The notes under the pieces: generated by a model | What the model was told of the DNA's origin: nothing | What the model saw: only the letters and a program-made list of their open reading frames with translations | The model's database searches: none | Made by a program: the position numbers and the translations under genes | Part shown: in pieces, positions 41,532-48,391 of the stretch | Numbering within the stretch: the stretch's first letter is position 1 | Layout of the letters: each line of letters opens with the position of its first letter | Origin: Solobacterium sp. | GTDB taxonomy: Bacteria; Bacillota_I; Bacilli_A; Erysipelotrichales; Erysipelotrichaceae | DNA: 51,673 bases | Assembly: GCA_024680365.1 (NCBI GenBank) | Contig: JAILCN010000073.1 | Location: 1 to 51,673 of the forward strand | Direction of reading: 5' to 3'

Positions 41532-42092
41532 ATGAAAGCAGCAGTAATCATCGCACCCGGATGTGAAGAGGGTGAAGCACTGACGATCGTCGATATTTTC
41601 CGCAGGGCAGAGATCACCTGCAATATGATAGGTCTCAACGCAGAGGACATTACCGGAGCGCATCAGATCACGATGCGGTGCGATCATGTCCTGGATGAAA
41701 ATCTGAAGGACTATGACATGGTCATTCTTCCCGGCGGCTATGAAGGAACCGACGCGATGGCAGCCAGCGAAAGCCTCAGAACATCCCTGCAGGAAATGAA
41801 CAGGGCAGGAAAGTACATTGCGGCGCTGTGCGCGGCACCGGAAGTTCTGGATCAGGCAGGCCTTCTGGAAGGAAAGACATTCACCTGTTATCCGACTGTC
41901 GCGGAGCAGATCCGCAGCGGAAACAGAACAGATGATGTTACGGTACAGGATGGAAATATCATTACCGGCAAAGGTCCGGCGCTGGCCTGGGCATTCGCTT
42001 ACCGGCTGGTGGACATTCTTGGCGGCGGCAGTGAAACAGTCAAAAAGAGAATGGTGTATTACAACGCGTTTGACGTGAAGGAGGAAGGATGA
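41532..42092 (+). CDS. DJ-1/PfpI-family protein, first copy
   Basis: The 186-residue protein has the DJ-1 layout: acidic residue in the first loop (PGCEEGEA), VILPGGYEG, and the nucleophile-elbow Cys in AALCAAPEVL. DJ-1/YajL-type proteins are tied to oxidative or carbonyl stress, as chaperones or proposed deglycases. AGGAGG precedes the ATG. The second DJ-1 gene overlaps by 4 bp. Confidence 0.87.
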   Translation: MKAAVIIAPGCEEGEALTIVDIFRRAEITCNMIGLNAEDITGAHQITMRCDHVLDENLKDYDMVILPGGYEGTDAMAASESLRTSLQEMNRAGKYIAALCAAPEVLDQAGLLEGKTFTCYPTVAEQIRSGNRTDDVTVQDGNIITGKGPALAWAFAYRLVDILGGGSETVKKRMVYYNAFDVKEEG

Positions 42093-42655
42093 GTATGACA
42101 AAGACAGCTGCAGTCATGATGATCGACGGTTTTGAAGAAAGTGAGACCATGCAGATCACAGATCTGCTCAGAAGAGCAGGCATTGAAACATATACATACC
42201 GCTTCCAGGATGATGAATTTGTGACAGGCATGCAGAAGATCCGCGTGAAGAGCGACCGCAGATTCTCCGAAGAAGTAAAAAACGCGGATGTCATCATCGT
42301 TCCCGGCGGCAGAACATGCGCTGCAGAATTCATCGCGGACGAGGCGTTTATGGAAACGCTGAAATGGTTCAATGAGAACGGAAAGCTGATCGCCGGCATG
42401 TGCTCGGGCACGACGGTGCTGGAAGCCGCAGGTGTTCTTGCGGGGAAAAGAGCGACCGGCTATACAGGTTATGAAGAGAAGCTGAAGAGCGTTTCTGAAT
42501 TTGTTCATGAGGTCACTGTATATGATCAGAACGTCGTGACATCCCAGGGCCCGGCAACCCCGTATCCCTTCGCGTTTAAGATCATGGAAGCACTCGGCAT
42601 CGATCCTTCTGAGATCAAAGCACGTCTTCTGTACGCCGAAGCCGGCGGGAAATGA
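42089..42655 (+). CDS. DJ-1/PfpI-family protein, second copy
   Basis: The 188-residue protein is a clear relative of the previous one, with DGFEESET, VIIVPGG and the Cys in AGMCSGTTVL. Conservation between the two is moderate, so the duplication is old and they may form a heteromer or differ in substrate. The start overlaps the first copy as ATGA; the ATG at 42095 with GGAGG 10 nt upstream is an equally good start. Confidence 0.86.
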   Translation: MSMTKTAAVMMIDGFEESETMQITDLLRRAGIETYTYRFQDDEFVTGMQKIRVKSDRRFSEEVKNADVIIVPGGRTCAAEFIADEAFMETLKWFNENGKLIAGMCSGTTVLEAAGVLAGKRATGYTGYEEKLKSVSEFVHEVTVYDQNVVTSQGPATPYPFAFKIMEALGIDPSEIKARLLYAEAGGK

Positions 42656-43495: not shown

Positions 43496-43518
43496 ATGAA
43501 CGTTTGCAGGAAGGGAGT

Positions 43519-44844
43519 GTGATTATCCTGAATCTGACATTTGAAAACATCAGGACTATTACCGTCATGTTCCTGGATATATTCATTATCTGGCTGGTCA
43601 TTTATTACATCCTGAGACTGGTCAGAAACAATTCAAGAACGATCCAGATCTTTAAGGGGATCATTCTGGTCGTCGTCATTGACGCGCTGGCCAAGATGCT
43701 CGGTCTGAAGACGCTTGAATATCTGATGGATATGTTTGTGAACTGGGGTTTTCTTGCGGTTATCATCATCTTCCACCCCGAGATCCGCTCGATTCTGGAA
43801 CGAATCGGAAAATCGAATGTATTTTCAAGAATTACAACGCTGACCGGCGGCGAAAAGGAAAACCTGGTCGACAATATCGTGACGGCAGTCATGATCTTAA
43901 GCAAGAACCAGACCGGTGCCCTGATCTCCATCGAGCAGTCGCATTCCCTTGAAGATTTCGTAGCGACGGGAACAAGAATGAACTCGGATGTGACCGCTGA
44001 GCTTCTGACATCGATCTTTGTGACGACAACGCCTCTCCATGACGGAGCGGTGATCATTCAGGGCGACAAGATCGCCTGTGCTTCGGCGTATTTCCCGCCG
44101 ACCAATCTGGATCTGCCGTCCCGCTACGGCGCAAGACACAGAGCTGCCATCGGTATCAGCGAGATCTCCGATGCGGTGACGATCGTCGTTTCAGAAGAGA
44201 CTGGAGCTGTATCCATCGCGGAAAGCGGCAAGCTCTATCCAGTCAGCCGCAATGAGCTGCGCAACTATCTGCTCAGAGTGATCTGCGGCGAGATCACCGA
44301 AGTCAGAACCGCCGGCGTGAAACAGGAAAATCTCATCATTGACGATGAGGAAAATGTCCATCCGGCAGAAAAGAAGAAAAAAGTATTCGGCAAGCTGGCG
44401 CTGAGACGTCAGGAAGCTGCGGCGCCGGTCAAGATCGAAGCCGAAGAGGTAACGCCTGCCCGCACGGATCCGGAAGAGACGCCGGAAGCCAGCAGTTTTG
44501 CGGAAGCTGATGAAGAAGCAAGGGCAGCGAAGATCAAGCTCCCTCACAAAAAGAAAGCCGTGCCGATGAAGGAAGAAGCACCTGCGGAAAAAGAAGCGAG
44601 AATGACAGCGGAACAGGTGAAGGCAGCCAGAGAAGCCAGCAGGAAGCGTCTGAAGCGTCAGGAAGAACCTGAAATGGCGCCGGCAATTGAGATCGAACCT
44701 GTTCTTGAGGAAGAAAAACAGTTTGATACGACAAAACTGGATATCTCTGAGCTCGTCGGCTTCAGCGGCGAACTGAAAGACCAGTTTGATATGGTGGAAA
44801 ACATGGCCTCCGATTCCGCCGGCCGGAAAGGAGGCAGCGAATGA
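43519..44844 (+). CDS. cdaA: Diadenylate cyclase CdaA with long C-terminal tail
   Basis: The protein has three N-terminal membrane segments (about residues 12-85) and a DAC domain with the catalytic motifs DGA (175-177, in LHDGAVII) and RHR (206-208), and makes cyclic di-AMP from two ATP. CdaA is usually about 270 residues; here a Lys/Glu/Ala-rich, probably disordered or helical tail of about 160 residues follows (280-441). No in-frame ATG lies near the expected N-terminus: the track's TTG (43504) sits on the likely transcription start, so I take the GTG at 43519, 7 nt after AGGA. The cdaR gene overlaps by 4 bp. Confidence 0.93.
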   Translation: MIILNLTFENIRTITVMFLDIFIIWLVIYYILRLVRNNSRTIQIFKGIILVVVIDALAKMLGLKTLEYLMDMFVNWGFLAVIIIFHPEIRSILERIGKSNVFSRITTLTGGEKENLVDNIVTAVMILSKNQTGALISIEQSHSLEDFVATGTRMNSDVTAELLTSIFVTTTPLHDGAVIIQGDKIACASAYFPPTNLDLPSRYGARHRAAIGISEISDAVTIVVSEETGAVSIAESGKLYPVSRNELRNYLLRVICGEITEVRTAGVKQENLIIDDEENVHPAEKKKKVFGKLALRRQEAAAPVKIEAEEVTPARTDPEETPEASSFAEADEEARAAKIKLPHKKKAVPMKEEAPAEKEARMTAEQVKAAREASRKRLKRQEEPEMAPAIEIEPVLEEEKQFDTTKLDISELVGFSGELKDQFDMVENMASDSAGRKGGSE

Positions 44845-46259
44845 CTGACAACGAGAAGAAAAACCTGTTAGGCGATGACCAGACGAACAAGACGGAACTT
44901 GCCAACCGGATCGCCCGCCAGTCCAGGAAGATGGCGAATACGTATCAGCAGCTCGAAGACGTTGTCTTCCGTACGGTACGCTGGTTCTCCGCTCTGATCG
45001 ACAAGGCGCTGTTCAACCGCAAATACGGAAAGATCACAGCGCTCGTGCTGGCCGTTCTGCTGTATGTTGCGATCAACTACAACACGATGGCTTCCATCTA
45101 CACAAACTCCATGAAGTATACCCGGACGATCACCGGCGCGCCGGTCACCGCCCGCTATAACACCGATACATTCGAACTCAGCGGCATGCCGGAAAAAGTC
45201 GATATCCAGATCATCGGCGACGCGACCAATGTCACCAATGCGCTGACATCCGGCGGCGTGATCGTGGCGGACCTGGAAGGCCTGACAGAAGGCTCACACC
45301 AGGTGAAATTTACCGGCGAAGGCTTCGGCGACAATGTCAGCGTCGTTGTCGATCCTTCCGTTACGGTTCTGACGCTTAAGAAAAAGACGACTCAGCAGTT
45401 TGATCTGTCATGGGACTTCATCAATCTTGACAGCATGGCAAACATCTACAGCGTCGGTACTCCGCAGTTTGAATACACCAAGGTCAATGTCCGTGCCTCC
45501 AAAGACACGCTGTCATCAATTGCCTTCGTCAAGGCGCTGATCGACGTCAGCGGGCAGATGGCGGAATTTGAGCAGGATGCCAGACTGATCGCTTACGATG
45601 CGTCCGGCTATCCGGTCCAGGCGGACATCGTTCCGGACCGGATCCATGTCAAGGTCCCGGTCACATCACCGAACAAGACGGTTCCGATCGAGATCCAGGT
45701 CAGCGGCGAAGTGCCTGACGGCATGGCAATTGACAGTATTACGGCGGATCAGCAGACGGTGACGATCTATGGTTCGGAAAGCGTTCTGGGCGAGATCGAC
45801 AAAGTCATGGTCACCCTGAGTGCTGCGACCATTACCAAGGATTCCACGCTGCTGCGGCCGATCGTTCTGCCGGCCGGCGTCAACAGCTCAAACATCAACC
45901 AGATCACGATCAATGTCACGCTCGCTGAATCGGTCAGCCGCGTCATTGAAAACGTGCCGATCAATTTCCGCAACAACATCAATAACTACAAGGCTTCCCA
46001 GCCGGAGAACAAGACGACGACCAGCGTCACCGTCACCGGCACCCAGACCAACGTTGACCGGATCAGCGCTGCCAATATCAACGTCTATGTCGATATGAAA
46101 GACGCGGTTCCGGGCCTGCAGGACTTCAAGCTGTATGTCGATCAGCCCTCTGACGGACTGGTAAAATACATTCTCAATGAAGCTTCCTACACGCTCAATG
46201 TACTGGGTGAAACAACGGATACGGATTCCAGCGGAAACCAGAATACCAACAATGACTAG
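44841..46259 (+). CDS. cdaR: CdaA regulator CdaR (YbbR-domain protein)
   Basis: The 472-residue protein has a cytoplasmic N-terminus (about 65 residues), one membrane segment (about 69-86, ALVLAVLLYVAINY) and an extracellular region of repeated YbbR beta domains (DGMAIDSITADQQTVTIYGSESVL is a typical unit). CdaR binds CdaA across the membrane and adjusts cyclic di-AMP production. ATGA overlap with cdaA. The usual third gene, glmM, is missing from the operon: a terminator follows. Confidence 0.92.
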   Translation: MTDNEKKNLLGDDQTNKTELANRIARQSRKMANTYQQLEDVVFRTVRWFSALIDKALFNRKYGKITALVLAVLLYVAINYNTMASIYTNSMKYTRTITGAPVTARYNTDTFELSGMPEKVDIQIIGDATNVTNALTSGGVIVADLEGLTEGSHQVKFTGEGFGDNVSVVVDPSVTVLTLKKKTTQQFDLSWDFINLDSMANIYSVGTPQFEYTKVNVRASKDTLSSIAFVKALIDVSGQMAEFEQDARLIAYDASGYPVQADIVPDRIHVKVPVTSPNKTVPIEIQVSGEVPDGMAIDSITADQQTVTIYGSESVLGEIDKVMVTLSAATITKDSTLLRPIVLPAGVNSSNINQITINVTLAESVSRVIENVPINFRNNINNYKASQPENKTTTSVTVTGTQTNVDRISAANINVYVDMKDAVPGLQDFKLYVDQPSDGLVKYILNEASYTLNVLGETTDTDSSGNQNTNND

Positions 46260-46310: not shown

Positions 46311-46970
46311 ATGAAAAGAGTAATTGGAATTGTTGAAGATGAAAAAGACCTGAATGAACTGGTCAAGAGATATCTTGAAAAGGAAGGATATGAAGTACAT
46401 TCCTATCTGACTTTTGATGAGGCGGATGCGCATACTGCCGATGATGATGTCAGTCTGTGGATCCTGGACATCATGCTCGGCGACAAGAGCGGTTTTGATC
46501 TGATCGAAGCGATCCGGACAGTGGATCCGGAAGTGCCGGTCATCTTCATGTCAGCCCGCGACAAGGAATTCGACCGGATCATCGGTCTGGAAAAAGGATC
46601 CGACGACTATATCACCAAACCGTTTTCGCCCAAGGAACTCGTGCTGCGCGTCAACAACATCATGCGCAGAACATACCGGGAGGAAAGTCAGAAGATCACG
46701 GTGGACGGCTATGTGATCGACGAGACGCAGAGAACGGTGACAGAGAAGGATGTTCCGATCGAACTGACGACAAAAGAATTTGATCTGATGATGCTGTTTG
46801 TCAACAACCGGGGAACTGCGTTTCCGCGGGAAGCGATCCTGGAGAAGGTCTGGGAAGTCAATTACTACGGAAGCGACAGAGTCGTTGACGATACGCTGCG
46901 CAGACTGCGCAGAAAGATGCCGAATCTGTCCATACATACCATTTACGGATTCGGGTACAGGCTGGGCTGA
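46311..46970 (+). CDS. OmpR-family response regulator
   Basis: The 219-residue protein has a receiver domain with acidic pocket (ED near residue 9-10), phospho-acceptor D53 in WILDIM, the conserved TKPFSPKEL Lys, and a winged-helix DNA-binding domain (TVDGYVIDETQRTV...ELTTKEFDLMMLF...RVVDDTLRRLRRKM). GGAG lies 9 nt before the ATG. The kinase gene overlaps by one base (TGATG). Its targets are unknown. Confidence 0.92.
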   Translation: MKRVIGIVEDEKDLNELVKRYLEKEGYEVHSYLTFDEADAHTADDDVSLWILDIMLGDKSGFDLIEAIRTVDPEVPVIFMSARDKEFDRIIGLEKGSDDYITKPFSPKELVLRVNNIMRRTYREESQKITVDGYVIDETQRTVTEKDVPIELTTKEFDLMMLFVNNRGTAFPREAILEKVWEVNYYGSDRVVDDTLRRLRRKMPNLSIHTIYGFGYRLG

Positions 46971-48391
46971 TGAAAAGACTGAGAATGTGGCTGAGGGAAC
47001 TTTCCCTGACACAGCAGCTGATCACAATTATATTTATATTTCTGATCTGTCTGGCAGGATTCTTTTTTCTGTTCCTCGGCCCGCGGATCGATGAATTTAC
47101 CTACAGCCAGATGTACAGTCAGCTGTATTCTTCCCAGCAGGGCATCGTCAAATTCATTGACTCGCATCCCGGCATGATCCCGCAGAATGACGCCAATATC
47201 GAGAATATTGACGCGATCTACGATCCCAAATATGACCGCTTCTATTTCATCAACGAAGGGGAGTTTTCAAATGCGTTCAAAGATGTGATCCGCCGCCAGG
47301 CCAAGATCGAAAGCTCAGCGCCGCAGGAATACAGATACACGATGCAGGCGGAGAAGGAAGACGGAGTTCCGATCACGTACCTGTATATCATGACAATGCT
47401 CAATGACAGGCGCTTCCTGATCTCCCTGATGGAAGATTCCGTGCGTGTGCAGTTCCAGAACGAACTGTTCTCCAAAGTCGTCGGCATCAATATCCTGTTT
47501 GTGACGATCCTCTTTGCGCTTCTGCTTGTCTGGGTCACTTCGCTGATCTGGCCGCTGAATAAGATCAAGGAGTATATCGACAAGATCCGGGAAGATGATT
47601 CATCCGCGAAGCTGAACATCCACCGGAATGATGAGATCGGTGCAGTTGCCAGCGCGCTTTCGGATATGGAAGCTGAACTGGAACGGCAGAACCGGGAAAA
47701 GGAAGAGATGATCCAGAATATCTCGCATGACCTCAAGACGCCCATCGCAACGATCCGCTCGTACGGCGAAGCGATCAAGGACGGCATCTATCCGTATGAA
47801 ACACTGGAAAAATCAGTCGATGTCATCATCGAGCACGCTGACAGACTGGAGAAGAAAGTACGCAGCCTGATCGTTCTGAACAAGATGGGATACCTGCTGG
47901 ATACATGCGAAGAAGGGGATCAGCTGAATATGTCGGAAGTGATCGATAAAGTTCTTCTGTCCCTGAAGGTCATCCGTCCGGAGATCCGCTTTGTGACGGA
48001 AGTGGATGAGGACGTCTGCTTCCATGGTGAAGAGGAGCCCTGGCGCATCGTTGTCGAGAATCTGATCGACAATGCCCTGCGCTATGCTTCCTCCTATGTC
48101 AGGATCACTCTGCAGCCCGGCGAACTGTGTGTGATCAACGACGGTTCGCATATTGACGATGAGGCAGCGGAAAAGATCTTCCGTCCCTATGAAAAAGGTA
48201 CGGACGGTCAGTTTGGTCTCGGCCTTTCCATCGTCTACAAAGTCTGTACAACGTACGGCTACCGCGTGACTGCGGAGAATCTGAGCGAGGGTGTCTGCTT
48301 CCGGGTCTGGAAGGATCTGCCGAAGAAGGAACGCCGGCGCAGAAAAGAAGAAGAAAAGAAAAACAGCACAAAGAAAACGGGAACCGCGTGA
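46970..48391 (+). CDS. Sensor histidine kinase
   Basis: The 473-residue protein has two membrane segments (about 17-38 and 171-195) flanking an extracellular domain of about 130 residues without a named fold, then HAMP, HisKA with H253 in NISHDLKTP, and HATPase (N box NLIDNALRYA, G boxes GQFGLGLSI). The C-terminus is a very basic tail (KKERRRRKEEEKKNSTKK). It should phosphorylate the adjacent response regulator. It is not WalK: there is no PAS domain and no yycH-like gene follows. Confidence 0.93.
   Translation: MKRLRMWLRELSLTQQLITIIFIFLICLAGFFFLFLGPRIDEFTYSQMYSQLYSSQQGIVKFIDSHPGMIPQNDANIENIDAIYDPKYDRFYFINEGEFSNAFKDVIRRQAKIESSAPQEYRYTMQAEKEDGVPITYLYIMTMLNDRRFLISLMEDSVRVQFQNELFSKVVGINILFVTILFALLLVWVTSLIWPLNKIKEYIDKIREDDSSAKLNIHRNDEIGAVASALSDMEAELERQNREKEEMIQNISHDLKTPIATIRSYGEAIKDGIYPYETLEKSVDVIIEHADRLEKKVRSLIVLNKMGYLLDTCEEGDQLNMSEVIDKVLLSLKVIRPEIRFVTEVDEDVCFHGEEEPWRIVVENLIDNALRYASSYVRITLQPGELCVINDGSHIDDEAAEKIFRPYEKGTDGQFGLGLSIVYKVCTTYGYRVTAENLSEGVCFRVWKDLPKKERRRRKEEEKKNSTKKTGTA

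Follow-up and report, generated by a model that had tools for sequence, protein, structure and literature searches.

The diadenylate cyclase CdaA (DacA; TIGR00159), a protein of 273 aa in B. subtilis, joins a transmembrane (TM) domain to a catalytic DAC domain that contains DGA and RHR motifs, and its gene precedes cdaR and glmM in the CdaA-CdaR-GlmM module. Residue Arg126 of the B. subtilis enzyme is essential for the formation of the GlmM complex and for inhibition (PMC8573169). Work on CdaA has to date concerned its TM and DAC domains, and little is understood of how the place and timing of its c-di-AMP synthesis are controlled; the known regulators are GlmM and CdaR. The linker and C-terminal peptide of FtsZ provide an example of another architecture, in which a disordered linker is combined with a conserved peptide. 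A literature search found no description of a C-terminal extension of CdaA or of the diadenylate cyclases of Erysipelotrichaceae.

The window analysed in this study (the whole stretch of 51,673 nucleotides, contig JAILCN010000073.1 of Solobacterium sp.) encodes this known enzyme, here with a new C-terminal extension. Its TM domain, its DAC domain with both motifs and the cdaA-cdaR gene order are those of described CdaA systems; it differs from the B. subtilis enzyme by approximately 170 more C-terminal residues containing conserved islands, by Asn in place of Arg126, by a probable CTG start codon and by a glmM gene located apart.

The cdaA reading frame runs uninterrupted on the + strand from TTG at 43504 to the TGA codon at 44842-44844. 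The probable start is CTG 43528: it is homologous to the start codon of L031, the nearest relative, and follows the Shine-Dalgarno sequence AGGAAGGGAG (43508..43517, + strand) at a distance of 10 bases. The gene defined in this way (43528..44844, + strand) encodes 438 aa, instead of 446 aa if TTG 43504 is used, and we number residues from CTG 43528; the end of the protein, placed at residue 441 by the initial annotation, is accordingly moved to 438. A CTG start is probable in the window and in L031, and many relatives have TTG or ATG five codons upstream.

The product scores 251 bits against TIGR00159, above the equivalog cut-off of 188.8. The CdaA_N membrane domain occupies residues 15-86 (PF19293, E 3.4e-9), with helices at 5-34, 36-58 and 61-81 in the AlphaFold model, and the DAC domain covers residues 119-236 (43882..44235, + strand; PF02457, E 4.6e-39) and includes both HDGAVI and RHRAAIG. 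Judged by these motifs, the membrane domain and the equivalog score, the protein is a CdaA-type diadenylate cyclase. It is the sole DAC protein found in the draft genome of this rumen-type gut bacterium.

The best solved relative aligns to residues 10-269 only and B. subtilis CdaA has 273 aa, so the window CdaA carries about 170-176 extra C-terminal residues. The long charged tail beyond the DAC domain reported by the initial annotation was therefore confirmed: K, E, A and P make up 51% of residues 263-438 (44314..44841, + strand), among which 41 are acidic and 31 basic. The tail falls in the disordered region of the charge-hydropathy plot, and disorder is likewise predicted by the AlphaFold model. 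The overlap with cdaR was also upheld, as the 3' end of cdaA shares 4 bases with the cdaR gene, whose ATG lies at 44841. The Shine-Dalgarno sequence of cdaR (AAAGGAGG, 44827..44834, + strand), recognised from the sequence and from comparison with near relatives, is situated within the last cdaA codons. The trailing KGG of CdaA, present in nearly all near relatives, is thus not a protein motif, since it is AAAGGAGG that is translated there.

A comparison of CdaA lengths, proposed when the tail was noticed, revealed that the extension is restricted to the window's family among the frames listed for 295 genomes sampled from the wider group. This family accounts for all the frames of more than 300 residues (304-554) in that list, and those listed for other lineages had 165-300 residues; in a second family of the same order the open frames measured just 249-323. 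CdaA has at least 320 residues in 73 of the 75 complete related loci of the named genome collection. Beyond residue 250, the tail comprises 93-333 residues (median 233) in 47 near relatives and 76-300 in 24 other loci. Most of the relatives are uncultured members of Erysipelotrichaceae or Solobacterium sp. obtained from the guts of ruminants and from other gut material. The cultured strains among them include NK3D112, 7770_A6 and Lactimicrobium massiliense, the last with a tail devoid of islands D and E. A search for viral homologues found none.

Each 14-residue piece of the tail was scored against the tails of 47 related loci, with shuffled copies for comparison, which yielded a median z value. 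This analysis separated several islands (all on the + strand) from low-complexity linkers that score no better than shuffled sequence (z about 0). Islands A (around residues 283-296, median z 4.3) and B (around 295-306, median z 2.7) lie at 44374..44445 (residues 283-306; consensus vLSKLAlkKQ ... KIEvEEV). Island C (residues 327-343, 44506..44556; EAxxIKLPHKK) reaches a median z of 7.6, and island D (residues 355-374, 44590..44649; RMTxEEVxAAREA) one of 7.7. The strongest is island E (residues 398-426, 44719..44805; QFDTTKLDISELVGFSGELKDQFDMVENM in the window), with a median z of 11.6 for the segment at 397-424 and the consensus FDTxKLDISKIVGFxxELDxxFxM. The spacing from C to D varies between 13 and 136 residues, and island E is placed 31-42 residues before the C-terminal end. 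The initial description of the tail as a charged K/E/A/P stretch thus holds for its composition, although not as uniform filler.

Where computable among 11 species pairs, dN/dS was 0.03-0.10 in the islands versus 0.08-0.25 in the linkers (linker dS being saturated for the window-L031 pair), which indicates that the tail evolves as protein and that the islands are under stronger selection. The conservation of the islands speaks against a poorly conserved linker, the exception being island E, which is missing in L049/L065/L071, L078 and L080. A sister clade (13 loci) has the same layout of islands and linkers with its own set of islands, of which that resembling island C alone is a likely counterpart (MK[VLMIN]PxNNRxK there versus IKLPHKK). 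The AlphaFold model, based on 40 sequences, is weak, with a mean pLDDT of 58 and a poorly built DAC domain. Its linkers are disordered and of low confidence, and the short helices that it contains (323-333, 361-377 and 415-424) fall within islands C, D and E or next to them.

We consider that the tail is best explained, with a probability of roughly one half, as a disordered, flexible, membrane-proximal docking arm with lineage-specific linear motifs. The pattern expected of such an arm, short conserved islands on unconserved linkers, is present in the sequence, where the islands (C, D and E being the strongest) ride on linkers that are free in both length and sequence. Each island might be a linear motif that binds, and folds upon, a partner close to the membrane; the tail would then hold the only known c-di-AMP synthase of this genome in a complex, and may tune the dimerisation or activity of CdaA. 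The earlier proposal that a cytoplasmic tail recruits partners gains from these observations insofar as constrained segments between fast-evolving linkers fit a putative recruiting arm. The architecture resembles that of FtsZ in having a variable linker and a short conserved motif close to the C-terminus, but there is no sequence similarity. Mimicry of the FtsZ C-terminal peptide by island C was considered and rejected, as the FtsZ of this genome ends in NIIPSFFRKG, which is no real match. Among 26 genomes, the profiles of islands C and E convincingly matched CdaA only, so neither island is a motif that other proteins of these cells have in common with CdaA.

A partner for the docking arm may be encoded by the next, overlapping gene. 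The product of cdaR (44841..46259, + strand; YbbR repeats, PF07949) begins with some 57 additional cytoplasmic residues (44841-45011) that precede its TM helix, an N-terminal extension conserved through the family. Its model (mean pLDDT 80) shows a long helix at residues 15-57 ahead of the TM segment, followed by a helix at 60-86. The sequence KTELANRIAxQSxKVAxTY occurs in the extension in most near relatives; the CdaR N-terminus of the tail-less family differs and carries STTDFFL. Both CdaA and CdaR of the window's family therefore possess family-specific cytoplasmic extensions, which sets them apart from the described CdaA-CdaR-GlmM module.

Co-evolution was assessed by partial correlations after removal of the DAC and CdaR ectodomain distances. 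The distances of the CdaR N-terminus correlated with those of island D (partial r 0.30, p 0.0045) and of island E (partial r 0.22, p 0.034), a small signal obtained in six tests on related sequences. L072, L079 and L103 retain island E and have a CdaR without the KTELANRIA motif, hence island E need not bind this motif. We infer that the CdaR N-terminal helix is the leading, although weak, candidate partner of the tail. A more elaborate scheme, tentative and clearly less probable than the docking arm itself, is a family-specific c-di-AMP module in which the tail islands, in lineage-specific sets, would bind envelope proteins, the N-terminal helix of CdaR, or both, and so control the localisation or dimerisation of the cyclase.

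The islands could alternatively act in cis. One of them, most likely E, would fold back within the same dimer onto the DAC domain, whose active arrangement it would block or promote. Such autoregulation is compatible with the conservation of island E, the highest in the tail, and with the length of the linkers, which is sufficient for contact with the DAC domain, but other tailed genera have similar DAC domains and lack the islands. Neither reliable tail contacts nor docking of the tail on the DAC domain was seen in the AlphaFold model, though with a mean pLDDT of 58 it is too weak to exclude docking. We regard this explanation as unlikely.

It is more improbable still that the tail is a non-functional low-complexity extension, retained solely for the cdaR ribosome site at its end. 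The linkers are unconserved, parts of the tail are missing in some lineages and the trailing KGG is accounted for by the Shine-Dalgarno sequence, as this explanation would have it. However, islands distant from the ribosome site reach median z values of 4 to 11.6 with dN/dS of at most 0.10, and the same layout recurs in the sister clade.

The initial annotation had also proposed that the tail replaces GlmM as regulator after glmM left the operon. It was correct in that glmM is not adjacent to cdaR in the window; the genes that follow encode a response regulator and a kinase. The glmM gene of this genome is placed on another contig (G000:C205:4772-6115; L110, L164), with a nagB-like gene after it. 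Its product is 64-70% identical to GlmM of the tail-less family and 46-51% identical to the operon GlmM of sister species, and is therefore of a different type, a point which, together with non-adjacency, favours substitution. Five sister genomes of the same genus hold close copies (84-89% identical), and in a related lineage (L100) the cda operon itself contains a copy of 74% identity. From these identities, the glmM of this genome looks like a replacement by a transferred gene.

The order cdaA-cdaR-glmM, followed by the response regulator and kinase genes, is retained in most of Erysipelotrichales, and glmM still occupies the third position of the operon in many sister species. Besides the window genome, the window's subclade has 14 members on the tree; 13 of them lack the operon glmM and the remaining one is unscorable, with scattered further losses outside this subclade. 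Island E, however, accompanies an operon glmM beside cdaR in 21 loci and occurs without it in 19, which argues against an origin of the tail as a substitute for GlmM. The tail is, moreover, older than the main loss of the operon gene, and we have rejected the view that it is a consequence of this loss.

The residue equivalent to the GlmM-contacting Arg126 is Asn in the window CdaA (43906-43908), which might likewise be taken in favour of substitution. This replacement is nevertheless order-wide: of the 131 Erysipelotrichales sequences counted, which include some duplicates, a single one has Arg, and nearly all the others have D, N, E, T or S, whether tailed or tail-less. Regulation by the tail in place of GlmM is consequently very unlikely. 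The acidic residues D151, E154 and D195 of GlmM correspond to D, A and A in the protein of this genome, so that all three features of a CdaA inhibited by GlmM in the B. subtilis mode (Arg126, the acidic residues of GlmM and an operon glmM) are lacking or incomplete.

Position 195 of GlmM, which is Asp in B. subtilis, is often Arg or Lys where position 126 of CdaA is Asp or Glu (basic in 20/46 loci with an acidic residue 126), and Arg is also present there in 8/36 loci with a neutral residue 126. This pattern is suggestive of a possible charge-swapped CdaA126-GlmM195 interface in Erysipelotrichales. A full-length close GlmM was not found in genomes G005, G007, G010, G014, G016 and G017, the first of which has a 46-residue fragment; this gap might reflect contigs absent from the assemblies or a phosphoglucosamine mutase that has diverged.

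An assembly or frameshift artefact fusing two frames has nothing in its favour other than the draft state of the genome, with its 7.55% estimated contamination, and can be dismissed, as the tailed frame is also open in independent assemblies, including that of isolate NK3D112 (L040), the related loci mentioned above (73/75) have similarly long frames, and dN/dS in the tail (0.03-0.25) is far below 1. On these grounds, the tail is a genuine part of CdaA.

The genes which adjoin the cda operon encode an OmpR-type response regulator (46311..46970, + strand; PF00072, PF00486) and a sensor histidine kinase (46970..48391, + strand; HisKA, HATPase_c). Both are found beside the operon in 55/63, 13/13 and 13/18 loci with enough flank, a conserved gene order suggesting that c-di-AMP is connected to the adjacent two-component system. 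Upstream of the operon, two tandem DJ-1/PfpI-like genes were recognised by eye from their translations (41532-42655).

These results bear on the regulation of c-di-AMP synthesis in two ways. The B. subtilis contact between CdaA and GlmM cannot be presumed across the order Erysipelotrichales. In addition, a tailed cyclase that is the sole one found in its genome, and whose motifs are separable, would make the question of CdaA as a scaffold directly testable.
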